From a virus, in IMG/VR virus record IMGVR_UViG_3300032086_000297, positions 1-22,914 of that record: 22,914 nucleotides of DNA; one strand, 5' to 3'. Below the pieces are notes generated by a model. That model saw nothing but the letters and a program-made list of their open reading frames with translations, made no database searches and was not told the origin of the DNA. Below, piece after piece: positions 1 to 22,914 of this stretch (position 1 is the stretch's first letter; every line of letters begins with the position of its first letter). The position numbers and the translations under genes are program-made.

Positions 1-37
1 TTTAACAACAAATGATTTTTTTTATTATATAATTAAT
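1..37 (+). promoter_or_regulatory. Copy A of the 37-nt late-promoter-like element, upstream of terS
   Basis: This is one of six copies of an A/T-rich element. Invariant in all copies are ACA at element positions 5-7 and ATTA at positions 24-27. This copy begins TTTAACAAC and ends ATATAATTAAT. Unlike the other five it does not end in a start codon; the terminase small subunit ATG lies about 20 nt further on, behind an AATT-rich stretch. A promoter role is inferred from the conserved spacing. The window edge hides what lies upstream. Confidence 0.4.
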
Positions 38-57
38 TAATTAAATTTTATTAATTC

Positions 58-312
58 ATGGACGGTCGCAGAAATAACGGGGGACATTCAACAAAAGGAT
101 TCGCGGGTCGTAAACCCAAGGCCGAGGAAATCGAACTTATTGAACGATTATCCCCATTGGATGACCTTGCATTCGAAGCCTTAAAAGACGGCATAAAACA
201 AAAAGATTTCCGATACGTTAAATTGTTCCATGAATACCGATACGGAAAACCAAAAGAAACAAAGGACATTTCAATCGACCACGAAACGCCTTTCATCATA
301 GAAATGGATTAA
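58..312 (+). CDS. terS: Terminase small subunit-like DNA-packaging protein
   Basis: An 84-residue protein whose N-terminus has the Gly/Arg/Lys-rich form (NNGGHSTKGFAGRKPK) common at the start of phage small terminases. A short helical, charged segment and an acidic C-terminus follow. Small terminases recognise phage DNA and hand it to the large subunit. The call rests on this N-terminal signature and on lying 24 nt upstream of an unmistakable large terminase. It is short for the family, so the oligomerisation part may be reduced. The stop at 310-312 is in the same frame as terL, so the two genes are separated only by one TAA and 24 nt. No Shine-Dalgarno is seen, as is usual for Bacteroidetes. 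Confidence 0.6.
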   Translation: MDGRRNNGGHSTKGFAGRKPKAEEIELIERLSPLDDLAFEALKDGIKQKDFRYVKLFHEYRYGKPKETKDISIDHETPFIIEMD

Positions 313-336
313 CCATTCCCATTTCGTGATTCCCAT

Positions 337-1515
337 GTGGAAATAAAAAAAACCGAAGCATTACGCAAAATTTATAAACTGGACAAACGTATCCGTTTAA
401 TCCGTGGGGGATCAGCGGCCGGGAAAACAATTTGCATCCTTACAATCATGATCAACGAATGTGTCAAGTTTGACAAGATTCGTGAAATGTCAGTTGTGGC
501 TTCTACATTCCCAATGCTTCGACGTGGCCCGGTAAGGGATTTTAAATTGATAATGAAGGGTCTTGGATTGTGGCGTGATTCACGTTGGAATCAAACGACA
601 TTGAAATACACATTTTCAAGGGGATCGACAATTGAATTCTTTAGTACGGAAAATCCGGAACGTGTACGCGGTGCGCGTCGTTCACATTTGTTCATCAATG
701 AGTGCAACGTCGGAATCAACTTCGAATCATACAATCAACTTGCAATAAGAACAACAGACATCATTTGGTTGGATTACAACCCTTCACAATTGTTTTGGGC
801 GGATCACGAACTTGTCCCAAGGGATGACGTGGATTTTATCACGGTAACATACAAAGACAACGACACACTTCCACAATCAATCCTTGATGAATTTAATGTC
901 GCAAGACAAAAGGCAAAAACAAGCGAATACTGGCGCAATTGGTGTTCGGTATATCTTGACGGTCAAGTGGGACGATTAAGCGACGTGGTGATCCCGGATT
1001 GGATTGAAATACCAAAACTTCCCGAAGATGCCCGGCTTCTTTGTTATGGACTTGACTGGGGGTATTCAATCGACGAAACAAGTTGTGTGGCATTATACAA
1101 GCACAATGATTCTTATATCTTCGATGAGGTATTGTATCAAAAAGGAATGTTGAATTCAAACATTTCCCAGTTCCTTAAAAACAATGACATCAATGGTCAG
1201 TTGTGGGCGGATTCCGCTGAACCAAAATCAATCGCCGAATTGCAATCGTATGGACATACAATCAACCCAGTTACCAAGGGACGTGATTCAATAGTGTACG
1301 GCATCAACTTAATAAACCAAAACCAAATATTCGTCACATCAAGGTCAAAGAACCTTATTACGGAATTGAATGGATATGTGTGGGCAACTGATAAGGTCGG
1401 AAACAAAATACAGAAACCAAATCCATTAAGTGGGGATCACGCAATCGATGCGGCCCGTTATGCATTAATGATGCAATTGGAAAACCCCAACAAAGGAAAA
1501 TATTTTATTTATTAA
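337..1515 (+). CDS. terL: Terminase large subunit (packaging ATPase and nuclease)
   Basis: This 392-residue motor protein pumps DNA into the prohead and cuts the concatemer. The ATPase half has a Walker A motif GGSAAGKT (residues 24-31), a Walker B-like HLFINE (117-122), and a following IIWLDYNPS segment (142-150) typical of this family. The nuclease half has the RNase H-like acidic residues in LDWGYS (D240), WADSAEP (D292) and GDHAIDAARYA (D367, D371). Length is slightly below the usual 400-550. The start is GTG at 337: the ATG at 335 is out of frame and stops after three codons, and the next in-frame ATG would remove Walker A. It follows the small terminase in the same frame. Confidence 0.95.
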   Translation: MEIKKTEALRKIYKLDKRIRLIRGGSAAGKTICILTIMINECVKFDKIREMSVVASTFPMLRRGPVRDFKLIMKGLGLWRDSRWNQTTLKYTFSRGSTIEFFSTENPERVRGARRSHLFINECNVGINFESYNQLAIRTTDIIWLDYNPSQLFWADHELVPRDDVDFITVTYKDNDTLPQSILDEFNVARQKAKTSEYWRNWCSVYLDGQVGRLSDVVIPDWIEIPKLPEDARLLCYGLDWGYSIDETSCVALYKHNDSYIFDEVLYQKGMLNSNISQFLKNNDINGQLWADSAEPKSIAELQSYGHTINPVTKGRDSIVYGINLINQNQIFVTSRSKNLITELNGYVWATDKVGNKIQKPNPLSGDHAIDAARYALMMQLENPNKGKYFIY

Positions 1516-1532
1516 AAATAATTATTAAAAAA

Positions 1533-1563
1533 TTTGGTTAATAAAATAAATGTTGTATATTTG
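1533..1563 (+). promoter_or_regulatory. Bacteroidetes-type housekeeping promoter
   Basis: TTTG at 1533-1536 and TATATTTG at 1556-1563 are separated by 19 nt. This matches the known Bacteroidetes primary sigma consensus TTTG / 19-21 nt / TANNTTTG at every fixed position. It lies in the 77-nt gap after terL and about 30 nt before the ATG of the winged-helix-like gene. This implies transcription of that gene by unmodified host polymerase, possibly early in infection. It is also the best single clue to host phylum. Confidence 0.75.
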
Positions 1564-1592
1564 AATCATAATAACAAATAAAAACACATAAA

Positions 1593-1901
1593 ATGAAAAC
1601 ACAAATTACAAAACTAGAAAATCAAGTATTAAAATCAATACAAAGATTTACGTCGGAAGATTTTTCTTCAGATACGGGAAACTGGGCATACGTTCACGAA
1701 ATTGCTGAATCAATCGACATAAGACAATTAAGGGCCTTGATAAGCACATTGTGTCAAAAAGGTATTTTGTATCACGAGGACAACGAAGGCGGATTTGACG
1801 GTTCTTATGTTGAAGTTACAGAAAATTACTACAAAGAAACGGGTAAATCAACACCCGCCGGAAGTCCCGAAATTGAGTTTATCAATTTAGAATTAAGATA
1901 A
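1593..1901 (+). CDS. Small winged-helix-like protein, candidate regulator
   Basis: A 102-residue protein not matched to a named family. The predicted layout is helix (LENQVLKSIQ), helix (YVHEIAESI), helix (RQLRALISTLCQKGIL), then a wing-like hairpin ending in SYVEVTE. This resembles a MarR-type winged helix-turn-helix. The C-terminal 25 residues look disordered. It is a transcription unit of its own: a host-type promoter ends about 30 nt upstream and a strong intrinsic terminator starts 8 nt after the stop. A DNA-binding role, perhaps early control of the phage programme, is inferred from fold-like features and regulatory context only. Confidence 0.55.
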   Translation: MKTQITKLENQVLKSIQRFTSEDFSSDTGNWAYVHEIAESIDIRQLRALISTLCQKGILYHEDNEGGFDGSYVEVTENYYKETGKSTPAGSPEIEFINLELR

Positions 1902-1908
1902 AAATAAC

Positions 1909-1932
1909 GGGGGTCATCCGGCCCCCTTTTTT
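1909..1932 (+). terminator. Intrinsic terminator after the winged-helix-like gene
   Basis: Five G pair with five C (1909-1913 with 1922-1926). The stem is extended by a T-G wobble and a C-G pair to 7 bp around an ATCC loop, and six T follow at 1927-1932. This is a textbook Rho-independent terminator 8 nt after the stop codon. The next gene starts only 5 nt downstream of the T tract. Confidence 0.85.
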
Positions 1933-1936
1933 AATC

Positions 1937-2161
1937 ATGTATAAATACACAAAAGAAATTTACGAATACGACGGGGACATATTCCATGTGATAACGGAAC
2001 CCGGAAAAGATGTTGCCATTTTCGAAAATGAAATTGGATACGATGTCACGTTGATGACTGAAGTGTTTGACGGTGAAATCATTCACCAAGAAGAAATCGA
2101 ATCTGATTTGGACTTCGAAGACTTCACGCACGAATTTGCTTGTAATTTTAAAAAATACTAA
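1937..2161 (+). CDS. Small acidic hypothetical protein
   Basis: A 74-residue strongly acidic protein, rich in Asp, Glu and aromatic residues, with alternating hydrophobic positions suggesting beta strands. No family is recognised and no membrane segment or Cys motif is visible. The ATG is 5 nt after the terminator T tract, so expression needs readthrough or a promoter inside the upstream gene. It is followed 1 nt later by a small membrane protein gene. Acidic compact proteins of this size are often host-takeover factors, but nothing here shows a specific target. Confidence 0.55.
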   Translation: MYKYTKEIYEYDGDIFHVITEPGKDVAIFENEIGYDVTLMTEVFDGEIIHQEEIESDLDFEDFTHEFACNFKKY

Positions 2162-2162
2162 A

Positions 2163-2372
2163 ATGGAAAATAATCAAGTCGAGTGGATCATGATCAAAAA
2201 GATCAGTAAAAAAGAAAACCGCAAAAACTTGCGCAAATTGATATTCAATGCAATCATGGCGGTTGCGTTGTCTTATGCGGCGTTTATATTCGCAATCAAT
2301 GCATTTGTTTGGTTTTGGAATTCCGAATTATTAAATGAAGCGGCGACATGGCTACGATACATAATAAAATAG
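2163..2372 (+). CDS. Small single-pass membrane protein
   Basis: 69 residues beginning MENNQVEWIMIKK. I chose this ATG because it lies 1 nt after the preceding stop; a longer in-frame reading would run back through that gene. A very basic stretch rich in Lys and Arg (about residues 14-27) is followed by one hydrophobic segment around residues 29-55 (AIMAVALSYAAFIFAINAF), then a short C-terminal tail. By the positive-inside rule the N-terminus is probably cytoplasmic. No function is recognised. Its end overlaps the next gene by 25 nt. Confidence 0.5.
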   Translation: MENNQVEWIMIKKISKKENRKNLRKLIFNAIMAVALSYAAFIFAINAFVWFWNSELLNEAATWLRYIIK

Positions 2373-2593
2373 AATATTGGAAGGTTTTGGATGCGTGTTG
2401 GAAGAACGACATCTTTGTTCACCAAAAACCCACTAACATCGGATATGTGCGCGGGGGACACAAAGTCAAATTAAACCTTGAAATAAATGGACGAATTGTT
2501 AAATTTGGAACAATGGAGTTTCGACAAAATACAAAAGAACTTTACGACAAGATTGAAGAAATATATCGATCCCGTTACGAATTAATTTCGTGA
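2348..2593 (+). CDS. Small hypothetical protein
   Basis: 81 residues, MATIHNKIEYWKVLDACWKN onward, with basic and aromatic residues and a central GGHKVKLNLEINGRIVKFGT that looks like a beta hairpin, then a C-terminal helix. No family is recognised. It overlaps the end of the membrane-protein gene by 25 nt, consistent with translational coupling. It is the last gene before a hairpin terminator, closing the small-gene block between packaging and tail genes. Confidence 0.5.
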   Translation: MATIHNKIEYWKVLDACWKNDIFVHQKPTNIGYVRGGHKVKLNLEINGRIVKFGTMEFRQNTKELYDKIEEIYRSRYELIS

Positions 2594-2624
2594 CCCTTTT
2601 TTCATTTGTTTTTGTTTGGGATTT

Positions 2625-2652
2625 GGCCGCTTCTTAGCGGTCATTTCTTTTT
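2625..2652 (+). terminator. Intrinsic terminator closing the small-gene block
   Basis: GGCCGCT (2625-2631) pairs with AGCGGTC (2636-2642), including one G-T wobble, around a 4-nt TCTT loop. A T-rich stretch with one interrupting C follows. The hairpin lies 32 nt after the stop of the upstream gene and directly before copy B of the 37-nt element, so transcription appears to end here and restart for the tail genes. Confidence 0.7.
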
Positions 2653-2687
2653 ATACACATTCGACACTTATTTATTATATAAATATG
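2651..2687 (+). promoter_or_regulatory. Copy B of the 37-nt late-promoter-like element
   Basis: It begins TTATACACA and ends ATATAAATATG, whose last three bases are the tail chaperone ATG. It shares with copy C the A/T blocks, a TCGA tetramer near element positions 10-14, and the invariant ACA and ATTA. It starts within the T-rich tail of an intrinsic terminator, where a new promoter is needed. A transcription start near the ATG would leave little or no leader. Confidence 0.5.
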
Positions 2688-3329
2688 AAAGTCAAAATAA
2701 ATGTACCTGAAGATTTAAGCGAAATCACACTTGGCCAATACATGAAGTTTTTGGAACTGGATTTCGACAAGAATTCAAGCAATTCATTCGCACTTCAAAA
2801 GACCGTTGAAATATTTTGCGGTGTCAACTTGAAGGATATTGCAGAAATAAGATTTTCGGACATTACAAGCATCACAAATCACTTACAAGACATATTCAAC
2901 CAAGATTGCAAAATGATTCCGCAAATCGCCTTAAATGGCGTCAAATACGGTTTTATTCCAAACCTTGATGAAATGAGTTTGGGTGAATACATCGATTTGG
3001 ATAATTACTTCCATGACTGGGACACAATGGACAAGGCAATGGCCGTCTTATATCGTCCGATAAAATATTCAAAGAACGGCAAATATTTAATTGAAGAATA
3101 CAAAGGAAGTGACAATCACATGGAAATGCGCGACCTTCCCTTAAATGTTGTGATGGGTGCCAAGGTTTTTTTTTACCATATCGCAATCGAATTGTTGAAT
3201 CATATCCCGAACTTTTTAGCGGCGGCGGACATGACGGATCAGCAACATCAAATTTTTCAACAAAATATGGATGGTATTCAAGCATTTACGGACTTGCTTC
3301 GGGGGACATTACCCGGTTCGACGACGTGA
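2685..3329 (+). CDS. Tail assembly chaperone, short (zero-frame) form
   Basis: 214 residues, beginning MKVKINVPEDLSEITLGQYM. This ATG is used because an earlier in-frame TTG at 2616 lies in the terminator region. The protein is helical with paired LGQYMKFLELD-like and LGEYIDLDNYFHD segments and an MAVLYRPI motif seen in chaperone-like genes of Bacteroidetes phages. Such proteins bind the tape measure and recruit tail tube subunits, as lambda gpG does. The short form ends LPGSTT at a TGA inside the extension frame. A nine-T slippery run at codons 161-163 allows a second product. Tail-terminator-like and gp10-like genes follow. Confidence 0.65.
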   Translation: MKVKINVPEDLSEITLGQYMKFLELDFDKNSSNSFALQKTVEIFCGVNLKDIAEIRFSDITSITNHLQDIFNQDCKMIPQIALNGVKYGFIPNLDEMSLGEYIDLDNYFHDWDTMDKAMAVLYRPIKYSKNGKYLIEEYKGSDNHMEMRDLPLNVVMGAKVFFYHIAIELLNHIPNFLAAADMTDQQHQIFQQNMDGIQAFTDLLRGTLPGSTT

Positions 3330-3418
3330 CAAGATTGAACGTACACAAGTGTTTAATGTATTTGGCATTCACAAAAGAAAAAACGGAATTAGAAAGGAAA
3401 ATGATAAATAAAAAATGA
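2685..3418 (+). CDS. Tail assembly chaperone, long form made by -1 frameshift
   Basis: Residues 1-163 are shared with the short form. Slipping back one base on the nine-T run gives 81 further codons in the -1 frame (3173-3415), ending TGA at 3416-3418, for about 244 residues. The extension contains GWYSSIYGLASGDITRFDDV (starting near residue 196) and then NVHKCLMYLAFTKEKTELE. This reads as real protein and lies far past the zero-frame stop. The -1 frame has no stop between 3113 and 3416. The stop overlaps the next ATG as ATGA. By analogy with lambda gpG/gpGT this would be the minor, tube-recruiting form. A missing T from sequencing error would give the same picture. Confidence 0.65.
3166..3174 (+). 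other. Slippery nine-T run for -1 frameshifting
   Basis: Nine T in a row, read in the zero frame as GTT TTT TTT TAC (Val-Phe-Phe-Tyr). T TTT TTT is a perfect X XXY YYZ slippery heptamer. It is the only good slippery heptamer I found within the window 3113-3329 where both frames are open. Ribosomal slippage or polymerase slippage on the T run could each produce the shift. I did not identify a convincing downstream stimulatory hairpin. Confidence 0.65.
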
Positions 3419-3873
3419 AACAAGTTTACGAAACCACAACCAAAATAAAAGACCAACTTCAGGCCGAACCGTTCATCAATACGGTGACGTTCGGTTCACT
3501 TAATGATGTTGACCTTGACAAGCAATCAATTTTCCCATTGTCACACCTGACAATCAATTCAACAAGCGTTGCAACAAATGTATTCCGTTTCAATATGTCA
3601 ATCCTTGTCATGGACATCGTGGATATATCAAAAGAAGAAACAACTGATAAGTTCACCGGGAATGACAATGAACAAGATGTGCTTAACACAACACTTGCAG
3701 TTTTGACGCGAGTGCTGAACATAATGCAAAAGGGTGACTTGTATTCACAAAAATATCAAATCGAAGATGTGGTATCATGTGAACCATTTGTGGATAGATT
3801 TGAAAACAAACTTGCGGGATGGGCGGCGACATTTGATGTGGTTGTACAAAACGACATGACAATTTGCGATTAA
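3415..3873 (+). CDS. Putative tail terminator or tail-completion protein
   Basis: 152 residues. The central beta-rich region IFPLSHLTINS... and the C-terminal DVVSCEPFVDRFENKLAGW... DVVVQNDMTIC recur, as I recall, in Bacteroidetes phages next to tail chaperones. Size, mixed alpha/beta pattern and neighbourhood resemble gpU-like tail terminators, which cap the tube end joining the head. The ATG overlaps the frameshift-product stop (ATGA) and the stop overlaps the next start (TAATG), giving tight translational coupling. A specific gpU assignment is inference, as no diagnostic motif is visible. Confidence 0.5.
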   Translation: MKQVYETTTKIKDQLQAEPFINTVTFGSLNDVDLDKQSIFPLSHLTINSTSVATNVFRFNMSILVMDIVDISKEETTDKFTGNDNEQDVLNTTLAVLTRVLNIMQKGDLYSQKYQIEDVVSCEPFVDRFENKLAGWAATFDVVVQNDMTICD

Positions 3874-4409
3874 TGGATTTTAAGAAAACAAAACTTGCAC
3901 TTGAATTGTTTGCCAAGGCCGTGAAGCTGAAGGCGCAACAAACCCTTAAAAAAGAAAAACAAATTTCTTCGGGTAAGTTGTATGATTCCATTGATTACAA
4001 TTTGGATGTGGTTCAAACACAAAAAAAGACATTGTATTTCACCCTTGAATTTTATATGGAAGATTATGGGACATTTATGGATTTAGGTGTTAAGGGTTCC
4101 GAATCGACATATCCCGAATCAAGAAATTCCCCATATAAATATTCAGGCCGATTTAAAATGATAAATCCCGCGTCACTTGACAAATGGCTTATAAAAAAAT
4201 CAATTGCACCACGTGACAAATCCGGACGTTTTATTGAACGTAAGAATTTGAAGTATGCAATTGCGACAAATATTTATCGCAAGGGTTTAAAAGGGTCACG
4301 ATTTTTTACCGGTGCATTTGAAGAAGAATTTAAAAACATTGACAACCAAGTACAAGAAGCATTCGGACTTGATCTTGAGGACTTCTTAATTAAAACACAA
4401 GTCGTATAA
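3873..4409 (+). CDS. Putative HK97 gp10-like neck/tail-completion protein
   Basis: 178 residues starting MDFKKTKLALELFAKAVKLK; an upstream in-frame TTG was rejected because the ATG forms the TAATG junction with the previous stop. An N-terminal helix is followed by KLYDSIDYN, a strand FTLEFYMEDYGTFMDLGVKG and a C-terminal YAIATNIYRKGLKGSRFFTG. This order of helix, a Y-G-x-F-x-D-x-G-type strand and a late NIYRKG-type helix resembles gp10-family head-tail connection proteins. Its position beside the candidate tail terminator fits. Confidence is moderate because only the overall pattern supports it. Confidence 0.5.
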   Translation: MDFKKTKLALELFAKAVKLKAQQTLKKEKQISSGKLYDSIDYNLDVVQTQKKTLYFTLEFYMEDYGTFMDLGVKGSESTYPESRNSPYKYSGRFKMINPASLDKWLIKKSIAPRDKSGRFIERKNLKYAIATNIYRKGLKGSRFFTGAFEEEFKNIDNQVQEAFGLDLEDFLIKTQVV

Positions 4410-5869
4410 TGGCAACAAAAATAAACGTAAGATCACCGTTTTATATTAACATCACCGAACCGTCGGTTCCGACACCAACATTCACTTGTGAAGTTGCTGA
4501 AGTGTTGAATCTAAGTATTGACCAACAAGGGCAAATCAGTACACCAACATTGGCTTATGGTCAAATTGATTCAATCACATCAACCGATTCCGATTTTTCA
4601 AATGGCAAATTTGCAACGGTTACAACCGCAACGGATCGCACAATTACAATAAGAATATTGATTCCAAGTAATTTTCTAAACGCAAGTGATGTTTATATTG
4701 ATTGTGATTATCTTGTCACGCAACCCGCTTATATTTTAAATACAACTTGTACGGGTGGCCCAACAACAAATGGATCAATACCTTCACAAACATTGGATGT
4801 GGGTGGTGATTCCGACACAATTAATTTGTCATCTTATTTTACACAAGGAAGTCAAGCAATTGCGGGATATACAATATACAATCCCTCAACGGTTGTAAAT
4901 GCTTCAGTTAATGGTAACACACTTACATTGTCATCAAATCAAATTGGTGGTTCAACGACGGTTCATGTTTCGGCTTATGACAACGCATCAAATTCGTGTA
5001 CTGCGACACAATCAATAAGTGTGACGGTAAATGCACCAAGTCAAGATTTCGATTGTGTGAATAGTGGAATAAATGCATTGGCCGGGGGATCGATTGACCA
5101 AGACGGAACAATCACCGACCCCAATACAACCGCCGCATCAATAAATTACATAAGTGAAACCGAAGGTGGTTCAGCAATAACATCTTATTCAGCAAATACA
5201 ACTGGAAGTGACCGAAGCGTGACATTGTGGTTTAATTTAACCGCACCCGCCGGATATGCAAATGCGGGATCAACAATAAATTGTTCACACACATTCACGC
5301 AACCGGCCGACGATCCTGAATTTATTTGTCGTATTGCAAACTTAAGTGGACAACAAATTTCCACAAAAGGAATAATAAATCCGGGGACGGCACAGAAAGG
5401 AACCATTTCAGATTGGTCACCAAAAACATTTTCGGAAGTTTCAACGGATACCGGAAGAAGTATTACATTTTATGTCACACCCCCGGCAACGGGATATTCC
5501 AATTCAGGCGGTTCAGATATTCCGTGTGTCAAAACAATAACACAACCCGCGGCAACACCAACGTGTGGAACAAACAATTTTTACATAAGTGCGGGATCAT
5601 TGGTTCCGGATTCTTTTTGTACTGCGGTTTATCAAGTCACAACCCCAATATCAAGCACGGGCAATCTTTACGGACTTGGAAGTGTTGTTTGTAAAAATGG
5701 AACACCCTTTGACGGTGATGACAGATATTATGCAGTTGCAACAAGCACGGTGAATGTTGGCCCAAGTTATGGCAACTTTATTATTTGGCAAATTGCTTCC
5801 AACGGCGTGATATTAAGTGTAAGGGAATCAAATTGCAAGGGAACAATCGGCGACACCGTCGCATTATAA
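4409..5869 (+). CDS. Repetitive Ig-like virion protein, candidate tail adhesin
   Basis: 486 residues, Thr/Ser/Asn-rich, with almost no long helices. Three related segments each end in a Cys followed by a TQPA box: about residues 27-107, 216-300 and 307-381. Each also has a DR- or GR-containing strand and the latter two a GY-N-x-G turn. Between the first two is an Ig/cadherin-like domain (about 120-208; SQTLDVGGDSDTINLSSYF to TVHVSAYDNAS). A Cys-bounded module (386-476) ending in IIWQIASNGVILSV...C resembles the C-terminal modules of the large baseplate-like protein at 6867. Such architecture suits a surface-exposed appendage binding host glycans or proteins. Receptor binding is inference. Confidence 0.6.
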   Translation: MATKINVRSPFYINITEPSVPTPTFTCEVAEVLNLSIDQQGQISTPTLAYGQIDSITSTDSDFSNGKFATVTTATDRTITIRILIPSNFLNASDVYIDCDYLVTQPAYILNTTCTGGPTTNGSIPSQTLDVGGDSDTINLSSYFTQGSQAIAGYTIYNPSTVVNASVNGNTLTLSSNQIGGSTTVHVSAYDNASNSCTATQSISVTVNAPSQDFDCVNSGINALAGGSIDQDGTITDPNTTAASINYISETEGGSAITSYSANTTGSDRSVTLWFNLTAPAGYANAGSTINCSHTFTQPADDPEFICRIANLSGQQISTKGIINPGTAQKGTISDWSPKTFSEVSTDTGRSITFYVTPPATGYSNSGGSDIPCVKTITQPAATPTCGTNNFYISAGSLVPDSFCTAVYQVTTPISSTGNLYGLGSVVCKNGTPFDGDDRYYAVATSTVNVGPSYGNFIIWQIASNGVILSVRESNCKGTIGDTVAL

Positions 5870-5879
5870 AACATAAAAA

Positions 5880-10463: not shown

Positions 10464-10473
10464 AATAAAAAAA

Positions 10474-10617
10474 ATGATTGATAATATTTTAAACTTATTA
10501 CAACTGGCAAAACAAGAAGGATGGCAAGGCGAACACATCGACATCGCCCTTGGAAAAAACAAATTTCCCCAAACCTTAAAAGAAGCAATAAAACAATTAC
10601 GACATGAAACAAACTGA
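10474..10617 (+). CDS. Small hypothetical protein before the tape measure
   Basis: 47 residues starting MIDNILNLLQLAKQEGWQGE, mostly helical, with no Cys or membrane segment. The ATG follows an A-rich tract (AATAAAAAAAATG) of the kind seen before other genes here. I chose it over longer in-frame readings that run back through the upstream gene. The 3-prime end overlaps the tape-measure start by 14 nt, which favours a coupled, translated gene. No family recognised; a role in tape-measure folding is only suggested by position. Confidence 0.5.
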   Translation: MIDNILNLLQLAKQEGWQGEHIDIALGKNKFPQTLKEAIKQLRHETN

Positions 10618-12493: not shown

Positions 12494-12525
12494 CAAAATC
12501 GACAAAAAAATATTAATATAATATG
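12489..12525 (+). promoter_or_regulatory. Copy E of the 37-nt late-promoter-like element
   Basis: It begins GATAACAAA and ends AATATAATATG, the last three bases being the protease ATG. It shares ATAACAAA and a nearby TCGA with copy C, and the invariant ACA and ATTA. The stop of the tape-measure gene lies in its first block. It would start a head-gene transcript (protease, scaffold, capsid). Confidence 0.5.
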
Positions 12526-13569
12526 GACATAATTGAATTATTTATCGACGACGAAGACGAAGTGTCAGGAATTGATGCAATAAGTGTTGTCGAAAATCCC
12601 GCAATCGAAGAAGATTTCATTGCCCTTAAAAATCAAGAATTTAATCTTGCCGAAGTTGACAAGGAAAAACGTATCCTTATGGGTGCGGCACTTGTTCCAA
12701 ATAAACCCATATATCGACGTTCAGGCGAAAATGAATATTATATATATTTTAGCCGAGAAACGGTGCGTAAGGCATCCGAATTGTTTTTTATTCGTGGCAA
12801 TCAATCACGTTCGACACTTGAACATGATATTCCGTTGAACGGACTTACCGTTGTGGAATCTTGGATCGTAGAATCCGAACAAGACAAATCACGTCAATAC
12901 AATATGAATGTTCCGGTCGGCACGTGGATGGTTTCCATGAAAGTCTTAAATGACGACATTTGGGAAAATTATGTCAAGACCGGAAAAATAAAAGGTTTTT
13001 CAATTGAAGCGTATTTCACCGACAAAATGGAACGTCCAAAAGACAAGTCAATCACGGATGAACTTGCGGCAATTGAAGAAGAAGAAAAACAATATATTTT
13101 ATCACAAATACGTGCAATCATTAAAAATGACAAACGTACAAAATCAGGCAAACGGACTGAAATGGAATCTTATTCAGATTATCCGGATGCGGTGGCCAAT
13201 AATGCACAACGTGGAATTGACTTAAATAAAAAGAACGGAAACAAGTGCGCAACCCAAGTGGGGAAAATACGCGCCCGTCAATTAAGCCAAAAAAATCCGA
13301 TTTCGAAGGAAACTTTGGTTCGAATGTTTTCGTATTTAAGTCGCGCACAAGAATATTACGACGAAGGTGATACAAGTGCGTGTGGAACAATATCTTATTT
13401 ATTGTGGGGTGGTAAGGCCGGACTTCGATGGGCGACATCAAAAATGCGTGAACTTGATTTATTAAAATCAGTAATGGATGACGACAATCCGTGTCAAGCC
13501 GGTTATGAAATGGTTGGTTTTAAAATGAAGAATGGACGTCGTGTCCCCAATTGCGTACCTGAAGAATAA
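12523..13569 (+). CDS. XkdF-like prohead maturation protease with extra C-terminal domain
   Basis: 348 residues. Residues about 45-165 match the XkdF-type phage serine protease pattern: ILMGAALVPNKPIYRR, YYIYFSRETVRKASELF, LEHD with H101, VVESWIVE, GTWMVSMKV, and KGFSIEAYF with S160. H101 and S160 are the likely catalytic pair. A Glu-rich linker leads to a second domain (about 216-310) with YSDYPDAVANNAQRGI, a Cys, and LLWGGKAGLRWA; I do not know its function. The tail has Cys residues and GRRVPNC. The protease would cut scaffold and capsid during maturation. It lies directly upstream of head genes and overlaps the next start as TAATG. Confidence 0.75.
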   Translation: MDIIELFIDDEDEVSGIDAISVVENPAIEEDFIALKNQEFNLAEVDKEKRILMGAALVPNKPIYRRSGENEYYIYFSRETVRKASELFFIRGNQSRSTLEHDIPLNGLTVVESWIVESEQDKSRQYNMNVPVGTWMVSMKVLNDDIWENYVKTGKIKGFSIEAYFTDKMERPKDKSITDELAAIEEEEKQYILSQIRAIIKNDKRTKSGKRTEMESYSDYPDAVANNAQRGIDLNKKNGNKCATQVGKIRARQLSQKNPISKETLVRMFSYLSRAQEYYDEGDTSACGTISYLLWGGKAGLRWATSKMRELDLLKSVMDDDNPCQAGYEMVGFKMKNGRRVPNCVPEE

Positions 13570-14207
13570 TGTCGACAACATTCAACACATCATATAAAGT
13601 ACACGTTCAACACACCAACCAAACGGAAGTTGATGCGGTCAATATTGAAGACGGTGCAATGCTTCACACAACCGATGCGTTGTATATGGGTCACAATGAT
13701 GTAAATAAAATTGTTTATCCACAAGGCGGAATAAAATCTTTAGGATGGGCAAGATACATGGACACACAATACACGGAAGCAAGCCCATTATCTTTGGCAA
13801 CCGACACACCTACCACATTACCAAATAATTCGGGAACCATTATTCGAAGTCATTCTTCAATTGATTTTTATCAAAATGGCATTAATTCAAAATTATATGG
13901 TCAAAATTTAAGTGATGTCTACATCGTTTCGGTTGAATTTAAGGCATCAGCACCAAACGCAAATCAAACGCATTTGGACTTATCTATTCAAAACGGTGGT
14001 GGTAATATTCAAAACCTTGAAATTGCATTATCATACATAAAAGGAAATAATGTGTCACAAGTTTTTCACACAATGTTCCAATACTACATTGACCAAAACT
14101 TTTTAAGTAATGGTGCATTCTTAAACATACAATCCCACGGCGGAACATCTTCAATTTGGGATATTGAATATTTTGTACAACGAACACAAAACGCAAGTTT
14201 ATCATGA
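13569..14207 (+). CDS. Beta-rich virion protein, possible decoration or fibre protein
   Basis: 212 residues rich in Asn, Ser, Thr and aromatic residues with no long helix, consistent with a beta-sandwich or jelly roll. It starts YKVHVQHTNQTEVDAVNIED and contains GWARYMDTQYTEASPLSL, YIVSVEFKASAP and SIWDIEYFVQRTQ near the C-terminus. No catalytic signature is visible. It sits between the protease and a small Cys protein upstream of scaffold and capsid, which suggests a head-associated surface protein. A tail appendage is the alternative. ATG overlaps the protease stop. Confidence 0.45.
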   Translation: MSTTFNTSYKVHVQHTNQTEVDAVNIEDGAMLHTTDALYMGHNDVNKIVYPQGGIKSLGWARYMDTQYTEASPLSLATDTPTTLPNNSGTIIRSHSSIDFYQNGINSKLYGQNLSDVYIVSVEFKASAPNANQTHLDLSIQNGGGNIQNLEIALSYIKGNNVSQVFHTMFQYYIDQNFLSNGAFLNIQSHGGTSSIWDIEYFVQRTQNASLS

Positions 14208-14398
14208 GTAAATTTCAAGTTCCTTCAGACAATCGACGTGCGTGTTTATGCCGTGACGGATCATATTCAACAAAATGTTGCAATCAAGACGATTATTTCG
14301 CACAAGGTATCGGAAGCATTTACCAAGGTGAAACCGATTCAGCGGGTACGATAATTGAAGTCGATACGACACGAACAATCACAAGGTCAAACGGTTAA
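14204..14398 (+). CDS. Small Cys-motif protein of the head gene cluster
   Basis: 64 residues with the cluster RRACLCRDGSYSTKCC followed by YFAQGIGSIY. Four Cys (C14, C16, C25, C26) lie in a CxC-x8-CC arrangement that could bind metal or form disulfides. I have the impression of similar CLCxDGxYSxKCC proteins near capsid genes in marine phages, with no known role. The ATG overlaps the previous stop (ATGA). Codon use and context suggest a genuine late gene rather than a chance ORF. Confidence 0.6.
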   Translation: MSKFQVPSDNRRACLCRDGSYSTKCCNQDDYFAQGIGSIYQGETDSAGTIIEVDTTRTITRSNG

Positions 14399-14401
14399 AA
14401 A

Positions 14402-14438
14402 TATAACAAAACAAATCCTTAATTATTAATTAAATATG
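14402..14438 (+). promoter_or_regulatory. Copy F of the 37-nt late-promoter-like element
   Basis: It begins TATAACAAA, identical to copies C and D, and ends AATTAAATATG, whose last bases are the scaffold ATG. It has the invariant ACA and ATTA at the same spacing as the other copies. It begins 4 nt after the Cys-protein stop and would drive scaffold and capsid genes. Confidence 0.5.
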
Positions 14439-15035
14439 AATTCGAATGATATGATAAATCAAATCAAAACCTTGCTTGGCATGGAAACAAAACTTGCACA
14501 AGCAAAATTGGAAAATGGGACGATCATTGAAGCTGAAGAAATGGCTCAAGGAAACGAAGTTTTCATCGTCACCGAAGAAGAACGAATTGCAATGCCCATC
14601 GGGGAATATCAACTTGAAGACGGTCAAGTCTTAATCGTTGAAGAAGAAGGAATCATTGCATCCGTTGGCGCGGCTGAAGAAGCACCCGAAGTCGAAGAAG
14701 AAGTTGAGGCGTCTGAAGAAACATCTGAAGAATTATCTGAAGAAGTGACTGAAGAAAACCTTGAAGAAGACGACAAGGAAGAAATGGGGTACGCGACAAA
14801 AGAAGAACTTGCCGAAGTAAAAGACATGATTGAAGAAATCAAGGCAATGATCAAGGACAAAGAAGAAATGTCCGAAGAACCACAAGAAGAAGTAAAAGAA
14901 GAATTATCAGCGGTTGAAAAGGTTACACACAACCCGGAAGCCGAAGAAAAGAAAATCAACTTCTTATATGGCCAATCACGTCCACAAAACACAATGGATC
15001 GCGTAATGGCAAGAATTTCACAAATCAAAAAATAA
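14436..15035 (+). CDS. Acidic scaffold-like protein
   Basis: 199 residues. The N-terminal half contains a small folded segment (LAQAKLENGTIIEAEEMAQG, then GEYQLEDGQVLIVEEEG). A very Glu-rich stretch (about 79-115), a helical coiled segment (ELAEVKDMIEEIKAMIKDKE) and a basic C-terminal end (MDRVMARISQIKK) follow. An acidic, helical protein directly before the major capsid gene and downstream of the protease is the classic scaffold position. Its basic C-terminus could contact capsid subunits. It is probably cleaved and lost during maturation. No motif alone proves the role. Confidence 0.65.
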   Translation: MNSNDMINQIKTLLGMETKLAQAKLENGTIIEAEEMAQGNEVFIVTEEERIAMPIGEYQLEDGQVLIVEEEGIIASVGAAEEAPEVEEEVEASEETSEELSEEVTEENLEEDDKEEMGYATKEELAEVKDMIEEIKAMIKDKEEMSEEPQEEVKEELSAVEKVTHNPEAEEKKINFLYGQSRPQNTMDRVMARISQIKK

Positions 15036-15064
15036 AACCTTAAATATTTAATAATCAATAAGTT

Positions 15065-16018
15065 ATGGCTACAACTACCAGTTTGACAACAACTTATGCG
15101 GGTGAATTTGCCGGTGAATATATCGCGGCCGCCTTATTAAGTGGTTCAACAATCGAAAACGGTTTAATCACAGTTAAACCAAACGTGAAGCACAAAGAAG
15201 TGCTTAAAAAAGTAAGCACCGACGCAATCTTAAAAGATGCTTCTTGTGATTTTACTGCGACATCAACACTTACACTTACTGAAAGGGTAATTGAACCAAA
15301 GGAACTTCAAGTTAACCTTCAATTATGTAAAAAAGATTTCCGTGGTGATTGGGAAGCGGCACAAATGGGAATGAGTGCGCATGATTCATTGCCGCCTTCA
15401 TTTGCTGATTTCTTAATCGGACACGTAAGCGCGAAAGTTGCACAAAGAATCGAACAAAACATTTGGAATGGCGACGCTTCAACAAGTGGTGATTTCGATG
15501 GAATTTCAACAATTATCGCGGCTGATGCAAACCTTCCCGCGGCGCAAGAAGTTGCCGGTACAACCGTAACATCTTCAAACGTAATTGCACAACTTGGAAG
15601 CATCGTCGATGCGATTCCTTCAACATTATACGGAAGTGAAGACTTATATATCTACGTTTCGCAAAACATTGCACGTGCATACGTACGCGCATTAGGTGGA
15701 TTTTCTGTGGCGGCTACTGCAAACTCAGGGGTTGGCGCACAAGGAACACAATGGTGGAACGGTGGCGCACTTAGCTTCGATGGCGTAAAACTCGCAATTG
15801 CGAATGGCCTTGGGGATAATACTGCAATCGCGGCTGAAAAATCAAATATCTTTTTTGGCACCGGCCTTGTAAACGACACGAATTTGGTCAAGGTCTTGGA
15901 TATGTCCGACTTAGACGGAAGCGACAATGTACGTGTGGTAATGAGGATGACTGGCGCGGCACAGTATGCCGTGGCTGAAGACGTAGTGACCTACGGAATC
16001 ACAAACTCAGCAAACTAA
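15065..16018 (+). CDS. Major capsid protein, HK97-like
   Basis: 317 residues. It follows scaffold and protease and is followed by a strong terminator. An N-terminal arm (TTTYAGEFAGEYIAAALL) leads to strands and a helix with PPSFADFLIGHVSAKVAQRI, an IWNGD turn, then LGSIVDAIPSTLYGSEDLYIYVS, a pattern typical of HK97-fold capsids where a spine helix precedes the A domain. The C-terminal VVMRMTGAAQYAVAEDVVTYG fits the end of that fold. Length is normal for the family (about 280-400). Two internal Cys are present; no cross-linking Lys-Asn pair can be assigned from sequence alone. Confidence 0.75.
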   Translation: MATTTSLTTTYAGEFAGEYIAAALLSGSTIENGLITVKPNVKHKEVLKKVSTDAILKDASCDFTATSTLTLTERVIEPKELQVNLQLCKKDFRGDWEAAQMGMSAHDSLPPSFADFLIGHVSAKVAQRIEQNIWNGDASTSGDFDGISTIIAADANLPAAQEVAGTTVTSSNVIAQLGSIVDAIPSTLYGSEDLYIYVSQNIARAYVRALGGFSVAATANSGVGAQGTQWWNGGALSFDGVKLAIANGLGDNTAIAAEKSNIFFGTGLVNDTNLVKVLDMSDLDGSDNVRVVMRMTGAAQYAVAEDVVTYGITNSAN

Positions 16019-16042
16019 GAATAAATAATTAATCGGAAAAGG

Positions 16043-16079
16043 GGTGGGCGATCCAAAAGGTTCACCCGCCTTTTTTTTT
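16043..16079 (+). terminator. Strong intrinsic terminator after the capsid gene
   Basis: A 12-position stem (10 pairs, two mismatches, one G-T wobble) from 16043 to 16070 has an AAAA loop and is followed by nine T. It lies 25 nt after the capsid stop. The next gene starts only 15 nt after the T run, with no copy of the 37-nt element in between, so that gene probably relies on readthrough. Confidence 0.85.
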
Positions 16080-16093
16080 AAAACAAAATAAAT

Positions 16094-16642
16094 ATGGCTT
16101 GTGACTTAAGTTTAGGAAGAAAGGTTCCATGTAAAGACGTTGTTGGCGGGATTAAGGCGGTGTATTTTATCGATTACGGTGATATATCAATTTCTTATGA
16201 TGCGACTGACACGGACTTGATTGAAGACCTTGGCGCGGTGACCGCGTATAAATACGAATTGAAGGGCAATTCATCGTTTGAACAAACATTTACATCTTCA
16301 CGTGAAAACGGGACGACATTCTTTGAACAAACATTGAACTTGACCTTGACGAAACTTACAAAAGAAGACCACAAGGAACTTAAGCTGATGGCTTGGGGAC
16401 GTCCGGTGGTGGTCATTCACGATTTCAACGGGAATGCGTTCTTGATGGGTGCCGAACACGGTGCCGAAGTAAGTGGCGGAACAATTGTGACCGGTGGTGC
16501 AATGGGTGATCTTAGCGGTTACACATTAACATTGTCAGCACAAGAACAAACTCCCGCAAACTTCTTGGAAGGTGCAACTGAAGCTGATCCATTTGGTGGT
16601 TTAACATCAACCGTGACGGTAACAGTTGGAACAAATTCTTAA
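16094..16642 (+). CDS. Probable tail tube protein
   Basis: 182 residues, beta-rich with a short Cys-containing N-terminus (MACDLSLGRKVPCKDVVGGI). Segments FEQTFTSSRENGTTFFEQTL and LTKLTKEDHKELKLMAWGRP, then SGYTLTLSAQEQTPANF, resemble the strand-helix-strand layout of tail tube subunits, and the SRENGTTFFEQ segment is one I recall next to capsid genes in Bacteroidetes phages. Being flanked by two terminators fits a highly expressed structural gene. A head decoration protein is the main alternative. The tail chaperone that would act on it is about 13 kb away. Confidence 0.55.
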   Translation: MACDLSLGRKVPCKDVVGGIKAVYFIDYGDISISYDATDTDLIEDLGAVTAYKYELKGNSSFEQTFTSSRENGTTFFEQTLNLTLTKLTKEDHKELKLMAWGRPVVVIHDFNGNAFLMGAEHGAEVSGGTIVTGGAMGDLSGYTLTLSAQEQTPANFLEGATEADPFGGLTSTVTVTVGTNS

Positions 16643-16666
16643 GAATTTTTTCATTTGATTGAAGAA

Positions 16667-16692
16667 GGGTGTCCGATTGGATGCCCTTTTTT
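16667..16692 (+). terminator. Intrinsic terminator after the probable tail tube gene
   Basis: GGGTGTCC (16667-16674) pairs with GGATGCCC (16679-16686) in an 8-bp stem with two G-T wobbles and a GATT loop. Six T follow at 16687-16692. Copy C of the 37-nt element starts 3 nt later. Confidence 0.8.
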
Positions 16693-16694
16693 AT

Positions 16695-16731
16695 TATAAC
16701 AAATCGAAGTCTTTTTTATTATATTAATATG
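16695..16731 (+). promoter_or_regulatory. Copy C of the 37-nt late-promoter-like element
   Basis: It begins TATAACAAA followed by TCGA, and ends ATATTAATATG, whose last three bases are the next gene's ATG. It lies directly downstream of an intrinsic terminator, as copy B does, and can be aligned to copy B along its whole length without a gap in the 9/8/9/11 block layout. Confidence 0.55.
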
Positions 16732-17067
16732 ATAATATTGCAAGAATCGGCATCGTCACAAACAATCAATTTCATTCCACGTGAATACACAAGTGGGACG
16801 ACATATACGGTCAAGATTGTAAACGAATCAACAAACGCGGAAGTGTACAATGAAGACGTCACATCATTCACCGAAAATCTTTATTATTATCAGCATTCGG
16901 ACACATTCAGTTTAAAAGAAGACACATTTTATATGCTGACAATCACATCGTCGGAAGTCGTGTACAAGGACAAAATATTTTGCACGAATCAAACGGTCAC
17001 CGATTATTCAGTCAATGAAGCTGAATACACACCGCACACAACGGACAATGAATTTATATTTATCTAA
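16729..17067 (+). CDS. Small beta-rich hypothetical protein upstream of portal
   Basis: 112 residues starting MIILQESASSQTINFIPREY. A longer reading to 16669 would begin inside the terminator hairpin and is rejected. Alternating hydrophobic positions (YTVKIVNESTNAEVY, FYMLTITSSEVVYKDKIFC) suggest a single Ig-like beta sandwich. No motif identifies a function. It shares the TAATG junction with the portal gene, so it is co-translated with it; a virion accessory or neck-associated role is inferred from that position only. Confidence 0.55.
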   Translation: MIILQESASSQTINFIPREYTSGTTYTVKIVNESTNAEVYNEDVTSFTENLYYYQHSDTFSLKEDTFYMLTITSSEVVYKDKIFCTNQTVTDYSVNEAEYTPHTTDNEFIFI

Positions 17068-18806
17068 TGGATACACACATCATAAATTTATCGTCATACG
17101 TTAAACCCAAGGTCATTGAAGACAAAAGAAAAGATTGGGTTGCTTATGGCGAAGACAATGATTATTACCAGTACTTAATTGACTTGTTTATCAATTCAAC
17201 GACAAACGGTGCAATCATAAACGGTGTCGCAAATATGGTTTACGGTAAGGGAATTGACGCCCTTGATTCATCAACCAAACCGGATCAATATGCGGCCATG
17301 AAATCAATCTTTTCCGATTCATGTATGCGTAAGGTCATCTTGGATTTTAAAATGCTTGGTGAAGGCTCATTTCAAGTTTTAAGACGTGATGGGCGTGTTG
17401 TAAGTGCTGAACATTTTCCACGTCAAACATTACGTGCGGAAAAGATGAACGACGACGGCCAAATCGAAGCATATTATTATCACCCAAAATGGAAGGAAGT
17501 AAAACCTTCAGATAAACCAAAAAGAATTGCGGCATTTGGTTTTGGTAATGGAAAAGAACCGGAAATCAAAATGATCAAAAGATATATTTCGGGTTATGAT
17601 TACTATTGTCCGCAAGATTATGAAACGGCATACGCTGAACTTGAGTGCGAAATTTCTGACTTCTTAATCAACGACGTAAAGAACTCATTTTCAGGTACTA
17701 AGGTCGTAAATTTCAACAACGGAACCCCTGACATGGAACAACAACTTCGCATCAAAAATGATGTGATGAATAAACTTACCGGGTCAAAGGGTGAAAAAGT
17801 AATTGTTTCATTCAACAACAACCAAGAATCAAAAACCACGGTTGACGACATAAGTTTAAATGACGCACCAAGTCATTATGAATACCTTTCAAGGGAATGT
17901 CAAAACAAACTTATTATTGCGCACCGTGTTACGTCACCGCTTCTTTTGGGAATGCGCACGGAAAACAATGGTCTTGGATCAAATGCCGACGAAATAAAAA
18001 CGGCTTCTTTGTTGTTTAACAACGTCACAATTCGTCCTTATCAAGATATGATTATTGAAGCAATGGACGACATCCTTGCAGTCAACGACATATCCTTAAA
18101 ATTATACTTCAAGACACTTCAACCGTTGGAATTCATTGATCCAAGCAATGCAATAACAGACGAAGCACGTGAAGAAGAAACCGGGGTCAAGTTGTCCAAG
18201 GATTTCAGCGACGAAGAAGGCGACATCATGCTTGATTTGTTGGTTGGTGAAACAATGGACGAATATGAACTTATTGGAAAACGTGAATACAAGGAAGACA
18301 ACGAAGACTTGGAAACGTGGACAAAAAAAGTAATCGACGGAAACATTGAACTTGAATCCATAAAATCAAAACCAAGCGGTGATTCATACCTTGACAAATC
18401 AGTTTATAAGGTTCGATATGCTTACGAAGAAAAATATACAAGCGGAAATTCACGCAAATTTTGTAAGCAAATGATGACAAGAACGCGAAACGGTGTTGTG
18501 TATCGTCTTGAAGACATTGACAAGGCATCACGTGGCGGGGTCAATAAATCACACGGTCACAAAGGCCAACCGTACGATTTGTTTAAATACAAGGGGGGCG
18601 TTAACTGCGGCCATTATTTCGAAGAACGATTATATCGTCTTAAAAAGAAGGACGGCGAATATGTCGAAGATAAGGCATTGTCATCGTCTGAAGAAGTTGA
18701 CACAATTCCAAAATCTTATCGTCCAAGACCGGCGGGTCACAAGGAAGCCAAAAAGGCCCCGAAGGATATGCCGAACAATGGACATCACCCAAATTATAAA
18801 GGATAA
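17067..18806 (+). CDS. Portal protein with Cys/His C-terminal extension
   Basis: 579 residues. Residues about 25-345 have portal features: an N-terminal helical region (YYQYLIDLFINSTTNGAIIN), a central wing/stem region with LDFKMLGEGSFQVLRRDGRV, and CQNKLIIAHRVTSPLLLGMR followed by NADEIKTASLLFNNVTIRPY, typical of HK97/SPP1-like portals. Residues about 446-526 form an extra domain with RKFCKQMMTRTRNGVVYRLE and GGVNCGHYFEERLYRLK (C466, C514, H516), reminiscent of SPP1 gp7/Mu gpF-type morphogenesis domains. The Lys/Pro/His-rich tail looks disordered. The portal forms the dodecameric DNA channel. Here it lies downstream of the capsid gene, far from the large terminase. Confidence 0.75.
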   Translation: MDTHIINLSSYVKPKVIEDKRKDWVAYGEDNDYYQYLIDLFINSTTNGAIINGVANMVYGKGIDALDSSTKPDQYAAMKSIFSDSCMRKVILDFKMLGEGSFQVLRRDGRVVSAEHFPRQTLRAEKMNDDGQIEAYYYHPKWKEVKPSDKPKRIAAFGFGNGKEPEIKMIKRYISGYDYYCPQDYETAYAELECEISDFLINDVKNSFSGTKVVNFNNGTPDMEQQLRIKNDVMNKLTGSKGEKVIVSFNNNQESKTTVDDISLNDAPSHYEYLSRECQNKLIIAHRVTSPLLLGMRTENNGLGSNADEIKTASLLFNNVTIRPYQDMIIEAMDDILAVNDISLKLYFKTLQPLEFIDPSNAITDEAREEETGVKLSKDFSDEEGDIMLDLLVGETMDEYELIGKREYKEDNEDLETWTKKVIDGNIELESIKSKPSGDSYLDKSVYKVRYAYEEKYTSGNSRKFCKQMMTRTRNGVVYRLEDIDKASRGGVNKSHGHKGQPYDLFKYKGGVNCGHYFEERLYRLKKKDGEYVEDKALSSSEEVDTIPKSYRPRPAGHKEAKKAPKDMPNNGHHPNYKG

Positions 18807-19309
18807 TGGCAAAAGGATTAATGATTTCACGGAAGGACTTGATTAAATACACAAGTTTAAGCGGAAATATCGACACGGATAAATTCATTCAATATGTGCT
18901 TATTGCACAAGAAATCACCGTTCAACAATTGCTTGGAACTGATTTGTATGAAAAAATTCAAACAGACATTGAAGGCGCGTCTTTGACTGGTGATTATTTG
19001 ACACTTGTCAATGATTACATCAAACCCGTTTTAATCCATGCCGCGGCCGTACAATATATCCCATTTGCTTCATATACATTTGGGAACAAAGGTGTTTTTA
19101 AACACACATCGGAAACCGGGGAAACGGTATCAAAAGAAGAAGTGGATTATTTGGTCGAAAAGGAACGCGACACAATGCAATTTTATGCAGACCGATTAAT
19201 TGATCATTTATCATTTAACGCGCCGTCAAAATACCCGGAATACAACACAAACACAAACGAAGATATTTCGCCAATAACTGGTCAATCTTATACGGGATGG
19301 GTATTGTAA
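18806..19309 (+). CDS. Head-tail connector-like protein (DUF6712-like)
   Basis: 167 residues, all-helical with IDTDKFIQYVLIAQEITVQQ, LLGTDLYEKI, LTGDYLTLVNDYIKPVLIHA, VEKERDTMQFYADRLIDHL and a C-terminal SYTGWVL. This helical layout and position directly after the portal match connector/adaptor proteins of Bacteroidetes phages that I recall as DUF6712-like. They form a ring beneath the portal to join head and tail. The start overlaps the portal stop (TAATG). The family number is from memory; the structural role is supported by both position and helical pattern. Confidence 0.65.
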   Translation: MAKGLMISRKDLIKYTSLSGNIDTDKFIQYVLIAQEITVQQLLGTDLYEKIQTDIEGASLTGDYLTLVNDYIKPVLIHAAAVQYIPFASYTFGNKGVFKHTSETGETVSKEEVDYLVEKERDTMQFYADRLIDHLSFNAPSKYPEYNTNTNEDISPITGQSYTGWVL

Positions 19310-19392
19310 GGACATATAAACCAAAAGAAATAAATGTCGTCAAATTAAAAACATTCTTGACTTCATTGTATAACAAAAAGGAAAAAAAATAA
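19297..19392 (+). CDS. Possible overlapping 31-residue basic peptide
   Basis: An ATG at 19297 inside the end of the connector gene opens a 31-codon frame, MGIVRTYKPKEINVVKLKTF then a Lys-rich end, stopping at 19392. Overlap with the connector is 13 nt. The bulk of it fills an otherwise empty 93-nt gap and reads as a plausible basic helical peptide. Its 3-prime half overlaps copy D of the 37-nt element. No family; it may be a chance ORF. Confidence 0.35.
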   Translation: MGIVRTYKPKEINVVKLKTFLTSLYNKKEKK

Positions 19393-19405
19393 TTATATAA
19401 ATATG
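19369..19405 (+). promoter_or_regulatory. Copy D of the 37-nt late-promoter-like element
   Basis: It begins TATAACAAA, as in copies C and F, and ends ATATAAATATG, identical over the last 11 bases to copy B. The final three bases are the next gene's ATG. Invariant ACA and ATTA are present at the common spacing. It would start transcription of the tail-fibre and possibly lysis genes. Confidence 0.5.
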
Positions 19406-19591: not shown

Positions 19592-19600
19592 AAAAAATAA

Positions 19601-20230
<630 letters not shown>

Positions 20231-20242
20231 AATTAATATAAA

Positions 20243-21723: not shown

Positions 21724-21726
21724 AAA

Positions 21727-22346: not shown

Positions 22347-22356
22347 TAAATATTAG

Positions 22357-22877: not shown

Positions 22878-22895
22878 CACGGTAGGATCAACGAT

Positions 22896-22914
22896 ATGTC
22901 AAAAGATACAATAA
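22896..22914 (+). CDS. Start of a further gene, cut by the window
   Basis: Six codons MSKDTI at the window end begin 18 nt after the endolysin stop. Too little is present to assign anything; codon pattern and spacing are compatible with a real start but do not prove it. Confidence 0.25.

Follow-up and report, generated by a model that had tools for sequence, protein, structure and literature searches.

Known Phage Sigma Factors and the Locus Under Study

It is established that a phage can encode a sigma factor which turns on late genes from the phage's own promoters, phiEco32 and phage 7-11 being the examples closest to the system considered here. In phage 7-11, the sigma factor SaPh711_gp47 serves bipartite late promoters (GTAAtg-16-aCTA) from which transcription starts 6–9 bp from the element (PMC8948821). 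The phiEco32 protein gp36, called an extracytoplasmic function (ECF) sigma factor in the literature, lacks homology to region 4 and uses a single-element promoter, tAATGTAtA, with no -35 part (PMC4331800, PMC7881722, PMC8948821). Here we analyze a viral fragment of 22.9 kb, IMG/VR record IMGVR_UViG_3300032086_000297, positions 1–22,914 (the whole of this stretch is hereafter the window), in which protein scans identify terminase, protease, virion structural protein, portal and tail genes, and which carries six copies of a 37-nt element at or shortly before gene starts. We put at roughly three in four the probability that this element acts as late promoter in a marine Bacteroidetes-type siphovirus family, used by the host RNA polymerase together with a phage-encoded ECF-like sigma factor and giving mostly leaderless late mRNAs.

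As in phage 7-11, a phage sigma factor with a region 4 would direct the host polymerase to bipartite promoters before late genes; the sequences, host phylum and phage family differ, and the accessible text on 7-11 describes neither a fixed abutment to ATG nor a leaderless class, the word "leaderless" not occurring in it (PMC8948821). The likeness to phiEco32 is that a phage sigma factor turns on middle and late genes from a phage-specific motif, whereas its promoter has a single element and that of the window phages is bipartite. Like the promoters of known phage sigma factors, the element is a phage-specific motif of low copy number situated upstream of late genes. Leaderless mRNAs were reported to occur and to be translated in the Thermus phage phiYS40 (PMC3594737); leaderlessness is reported in that Thermus system and predicted from sequence in the window phages. 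For Flavobacterium psychrophilum, sigma-A promoters and an ECF-type motif, SM6, with CGT in its -10 part have been described, and 5.5% of mRNAs are leaderless (PMC9723704); this CGT is like the CGTTA found in phage P12024S, of the same host phylum, whereas the window clade has TATTA or TATTG. No promoter description for P12024S or P12024L was found in the open-access literature searched. New here are a diverged, putatively ECF-like phage sigma factor, a lineage-specific promoter and a late gene class predicted to be mostly leaderless.

Six Copies of the Element in the Window

A preliminary description of this DNA, made from its letters, had reported six copies of the element at 1–37, 2651–2687, 12489–12525, 14402–14438, 16695–16731 and 19369–19405 (copies 1 to 6; all window features given here lie on the plus strand), and we find each in its place with the same letters, including ACA at element positions 5–7, ATTA at 24–27 and only A or T at 18–26. 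Three copies have TATAACAAA unaltered, and a fourth reads GATAACAAA there. Five of the six end in an ATG, the exception being copy 1, whose gene, terS, starts at 58. The element takes the form YTAACAAA, about 14 nt, TATTRT, 6–7 nt and the predicted transcription start.

Copy 1, which heads the terS-terL unit, has a -35-like part at 3–9, a -10-like TATTAT at 23–28 and a predicted +1 at 35, leaving a leader of about 23 nt before the terS ATG. In the other five, the predicted +1 is the A of the ATG. Copy 2 has a variant -35 part, TTATACACA, and TATTAT at 2673–2678 (predicted +1 at 2685), and is kept at the orthologous gene in three relatives (G001, G002, and G014). Copy 3, with TATTAA at 12511–12516 and a predicted +1 at 12523, the start of the head maturation protease gene, is weak singly, yet is kept at the protease gene in relatives. 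Copy 4 (predicted +1 at 14436) precedes the gene in scaffold position and is likewise kept in relatives; copy 5, with TATAACAAA and TATTAT at 16717–16722, has its predicted +1 at 16729 in the gene before portal, and copy 6 has its own at 19403, opening a 62-amino-acid open reading frame.

The T4 late promoter is TATAAATA, which some copies also have at their end; in the present element, however, the invariant part (ATT) lies upstream of it, there is a conserved -35 half and the TATAAATA stretch itself varies. All six copies depart, as the preliminary description had noted, from the Bacteroidetes sigma-A consensus (a TAnnTTTG -7 box with TTG or TTTG near -33).

The same description had cautioned that A/T richness might inflate the similarity and had proposed a background test, which all six copies pass within the window and four pass individually. 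With leave-one-out weight matrices, the held-out copy was the top position of the window, both strands included, in 6/6 trials, so A/T richness alone is an insufficient explanation; with the six-copy matrix, the weakest copy scored 27.3 bits and the best non-site position in the whole window 13.6. Against 1 Mb of synthetic sequence, generated by an order-2 Markov model from the A/T-rich stretches of the window, copies 2, 4, 5, and 6 were matched 0–1 times, whereas copies 1 and 3 were matched 39 and 46 times, are not significant singly and therefore need outside support, which is provided by their conservation at orthologous genes in relatives.

Conservation at the Late Genes of Related Phages

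Dozens of related phages carry the element at equivalent places among their late genes, and these sites are very probably promoters that turn on the virion genes of an abundant marine phage family. Among 80 loci selected by their portal gene and scanned with the window matrix, relatives with 60–97% identical portals carry the element at equivalent gene starts, and nearly all of these sites end in ATG. AACAA and TATTRT stand at a rigid distance, 14 nt in 50 unique sites compared with about 10 sites at any other gap, and within those 50 the ATG follows 6 nt on in 34 and 7 nt on in 5. The tail-chaperone copies in relatives have a weaker -35 half, with TACA instead of AAC. Placement is confined to late units, bearing out the late-promoter proposal of the preliminary description: two near-complete relatives (G021 and G022, 32.0 kb each) have strong sites at the terS, protease, scaffold, pre-portal and post-portal units and no strong site on either strand of their early region of about 14 kb, and no position in the window phage's own early region exceeds 13.2 with the window matrix.

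Two further samples were drawn independently of the portal. An exact-pattern scan of IMG/VR returned at least 135 sites; among the matches listed, 126 of 135 open four known late genes (pre-portal 53, protease 47, the 19403-type gene 20, scaffold 6), and the other nine, among those same matches, open a small MDxxTKxIL gene (8) or a 19403-like gene (1). The second sample comprises 16 viral contigs chosen solely by the sigma gene described below; there, one strand has 63 occurrences of the core AACAA-N14-WATTRT, the opposite strand has a single one, and a reversed control pattern has six matches; in a bacterial assembly retrieved alongside these contigs, pattern and control are equal (17 vs. 16). 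Within nine of the sigma-chosen contigs, 44/46 coding-strand sites precede known late units.

The small MDxxTKxIL gene is an extra gene between protease and scaffold in some relatives (G031 at 7620, G034 at 16741, L154 at 1755), where it has a late element of its own, and gene and promoter look as if they had been inserted together. Separately, an antisense copy, TATAACAAT..TTTTGTATAAATAG, is kept on the minus strand of G032 (23657) and G035 (9713), with no gene assigned to it.

A Constant -35 Half and a Drifting -10 Half

The closest named relatives of the window phage are the Nonlabens (Persicivirga) phages P12024S and P12024L of the genus Inhavirus, with a portal identity of 33%; megablast gave no match to the window among cultured phages. 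In the cultured P12024S, the element takes the form AAAACAAA-N~15-CGTTA-N6/7-ATG at seven late genes, and 6/7 of these sites are strong, ranking first or nearly so in leave-one-out trials. Elsewhere in the family, G017 and G020 have AACAA..CATTTATA at the tail-chaperone and scaffold genes, and G008 and G016 have AACR..CGTTTRTA. Across lineages the -35 half is kept and the -10 half changes (TATTA, TATTG, CATTT, CGTTA).

ECF-type promoters have AAC in the -35 element. This AAC is present in nearly all copies (those at tail-chaperone genes being the exception), and the CGT of ECF-type -10 parts occurs in P12024S, G008 and G016 and is absent from the window clade. At residue level, a co-variation between the fifth -10 base, A or G, and sigma region 2 is not clean and we do not claim it, because G025 and G026 have RSLYY, as do the G-type G014 and G007, yet carry A-type sites.

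A Candidate Phage Sigma Factor

Together with the window, three overlapping IMG/VR contigs give a closed map of its phage, about 30.9 kb long: L120 matches window positions 1–5040 at 100% over 5040 nt, L001 matches 10830–22914 at 99.93% identity, and L119 overlaps both. In P12024S, annotation, synteny and profile comparison led to gp33, which is annotated with sigma region 2, directly precedes the terminase genes and passes the Pfam Sigma70_r2 model (25.2 against a cut-off of 24). For a protein that would read the element, the preliminary description had named no candidate; outside the window, the window phage has a candidate counterpart of gp33, 186 amino acids long, at L119 3487–4044 (also L120 230–781), which adjoins a gp35-like neighbor as gp33 does, and which, by the identity of L120 with the window, sits in the same genome as the late promoters. 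Relatives of this protein are encoded in 393 IMG/VR stretches; tblastn found no match to it among cultured phages.

A structure predicted from an alignment of 53 members (pLDDT 82.6) has helices at residues 9–80 and 101–176 and a disordered segment at 80–98, i.e., the sigma2-linker-sigma4 layout without sigma3 by which ECF (group IV) factors are recognized. The top Foldseek matches in the PDB are Escherichia coli sigmaE, Mycobacterium tuberculosis SigL and AlgU (probability 1.00), nearly all of the top matches being ECF sigma factors, and many of the best named matches in BFVD are phage sigma factors, several of them called ECF. The model's domains fit 2h27 at 1.7–1.8 Å and 4lup at 3.1 Å, region 4 corresponding, at 1.7–1.8 Å, to region 4 of sigmaE on -35 DNA. 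At the sequence level, the profile of a 21-member alignment aligns with P12024S gp33 over both domains (E = 1.8e-6), and among the 53 relatives Pfam gives weak region 2 matches in 23 and weak r4_2 matches in 7. The predicted fold supports membership of the window protein in the ECF family, which its sequence does not settle, and the element is probably read by this phage-made sigma factor.

A less favored explanation, to which we give a small share of the probability, is that the late promoter is read by host machinery, either a host ECF sigma factor or sigma-A with a phage activator, and not by the linked phage protein. Flavobacteria own several ECF sigma factors, one of them with a CGT -10 box (PMC9723704) to which the CGTTA of P12024S may be compared, and the TATTRT of the window clade is near generic. 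The -10 half nevertheless varies by phage lineage, the clades with the element carry the sigma-like gene, and TAnnTTTG is not matched.

Two observations concern the sigma gene itself. A small Cys-containing protein (GLGDT..TKxTGI..C.C..R...LN) adjoins the candidate in the compared genomes (L119 3971–4420, P12024S 21280–21639); its gene overlaps the 3' end of the sigma gene in the window phage and carries its own late element in P12024S, and it is a possible sigma partner. Close matches to the clade element lie inside the sigma gene in two relatives (G016_L056 at 16304, G008_L030 at 16437), and may be either a coding coincidence or an internal, self-activating promoter.

Promoter or Ribosome Site

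The preliminary description had proposed that transcripts start at or near the start codon, and the copies that do not abut an ATG speak to this directly. The terS copy is kept with a leader of about 20–30 nt in more than 20 related contigs and abuts the ATG only in G022/L124, and the scaffold copy also switches between leadered and abutting forms (G036 and G037 vs. others). Over all fetched loci, 198 unique sites abut an ATG and 37 contexts are non-abutting; among these 37, a purine takes the place of the A of ATG in 35 and a T comes directly before it in 29, a pyrimidine-purine initiator. This pattern is the best evidence the sequences offer for a start at that position, and hence at the ATG in most units, from which we infer leaderless late mRNAs for most units. 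A side observation is that terS apparently starts with TTG and not ATG in two relatives (G014_L049 and G006_L023), with a long leader after the element.

It could be argued instead that the element serves translation initiation on leadered mRNAs as a Kozak-like A-rich region plus an upstream enhancer, with the distance to ATG set by ribosome geometry. The 198 abutting sites and the A/T richness of the element would suit this explanation, as would the translation habits of Bacteroidetes, which do without Shine-Dalgarno sequences and use A at -3, -6, -12, and -13, A at -12/-13 helping translation in Flavobacterium (PMC6847099). The element does not follow this profile: genes with a site have T at -12 in 84% and at -13 in 68%, compared with A in 53–54% of these phages' other genes, a comparison partly built from the motif itself, and positions -6 and -3 are A-rich in site genes and other genes alike. 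The element is kept without an adjacent ATG at terS and some scaffold genes, with the initiator at the equivalent position, which argues for a promoter and not a ribosome site. The ribosome footprint, moreover, does not reach the -30 half of the element. We regard a ribosome signal as improbable.

More improbable still is recognition of the element by an RNA polymerase that the phage itself encodes, be it T7-like or AR9-like. The late promoters of AR9, AACA-6N-TA/G, are attributed to its multisubunit non-virion polymerase and give untranslated regions of 26–491 nt (PMC5312081); AACA is common to both, but the spacing of 6 and the polymerase of its own set AR9 apart. The bipartite spacing of the present element fits sigma promoters and not AACA-6N, genomes in this family are about 31–36 kb, and PHROGs and Pfam gave no polymerase match for the proteins scanned, the large ones included. 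Chance likeness of A/T-rich intergenic sequence, which the two singly non-significant copies of six might suggest, is already refuted by the counts, given the top rank of each held-out copy, the rigid gap, the skew to one strand and the conservation at orthologous genes, and has a negligible probability.

Proposed Mechanism

We propose that the phage early region makes a small two-domain (sigma2-sigma4) ECF-like sigma factor, carried by the host RNA polymerase. The holoenzyme would bind YTAACAAA as -35 part and, as -10 part, TATTRT (window clade) or CGTTA (P12024S), and transcription would begin 6–7 nt past the -10 part. At most late units this start would be the A of the ATG, yielding a leaderless mRNA; at terS, and at scaffold genes in some relatives, it would lie 10–30 nt upstream of the start codon. 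The intrinsic terminators just upstream of two copies would insulate the units.

Several observations weigh against a late promoter read by a phage ECF-like sigma factor at the start codon. The window's sigma candidate falls below the Pfam sigma cut-offs, and a PDB sequence-profile search with it found no sigma chain; whole-chain TM-scores are low (0.3–0.4) because the linker is disordered, and the fold match therefore rests on the domains. The link between sigma factor and promoter is one of co-occurrence, position and shared descent, not of binding. The near-generic -10 half has been mentioned, as has the flavobacterial ECF motif that the P12024S CGT box resembles, and the spacer, at about 14 nt after AACAA, falls short of the usual 16–17. 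More divergent portal-selected relatives show 2–3 recognized copies or none, and the conservation counts overstate the evidence because related sequences are not independent. Finally, a leader is plain at terS, and at scaffold in some relatives, and leaderlessness itself is something we infer.

Genes and Other Features of the Window

The terS-like gene of the leadered copy 1 unit (58–312) matches P12024S gp36 and precedes the terminase large subunit gene (337–1515; phrog_2, 1.4e-28). The structural names given in the preliminary description stood in part. The head maturation protease (12523–13569), first gene after copy 3, and the portal protein (17067–18806; phrog_33693, 6.9e-92) have PHROGs matches that support them; the first gene after copy 4 (14436–15035; phrog_24921, 1.8e-7) is a putative scaffold gene by its position ahead of a virion structural protein gene (15065–16018); and "tail chaperone" and "TAD-repeat" are putative labels of that description. 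The pre-portal gene after copy 5 (16729–17067) is conserved in relatives and has no PHROG match.

The intrinsic terminators reported directly before two copies are real. The one before copy 2 (2624–2650, stem 2624–2643) was recovered by a consensus scan, and a similar hairpin, read directly, precedes the equivalent copy in G001, G002, and G014. The other, before copy 5 (16667–16694), escaped that scan and was read directly as AAGGGTGTCC-GATT-GGATGCCCTT followed by a T-run.

A host-type, Bacteroidetes sigma-A promoter-like site, TTG..TATATTTG (TTGGTTAATAAAATAAATGTTGTATATTTG), lies at 1534–1563 before a small gene at 1593. It offers a contrast inside the late region while standing outside the late set, and a similar site is found in G002 at 22240. 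Scanning for host-type promoters gave too many chance matches on both strands and is useful only for single intergenic examples such as these.

A sigma relative at 92% (L270 2427–2996) occurs on a 13.5-kb contig within a "Candidatus Thioglobus" assembly, the one match in a scan of bacterial genomes for the sigma gene. The contig is probably a phage contig inside that assembly, is not proof of a host, and was set aside as host evidence.

Implications for the Phage Family

We slightly favor a picture in which an abundant marine Bacteroidetes phage family expresses most of its virion genes from leaderless mRNAs and the -10 half of its promoter drifts together with a divergent ECF-like sigma factor. 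If the proposed reading is true, it would provide the late-transcription logic for a family represented in hundreds of viral contigs and in the cultured pair P12024S/L, and a simple signature would mark late units in uncultured phage contigs. It would become testable how sigma factor and promoters drift together, with a constant AACA in the -35 half and a -10 half that differs by lineage, and how Bacteroidetes ribosomes, which make no use of Shine-Dalgarno sequences, handle a whole leaderless late class. A phage-specific transcription switch would then force a host with few leaderless mRNAs into another mode of translation as well.

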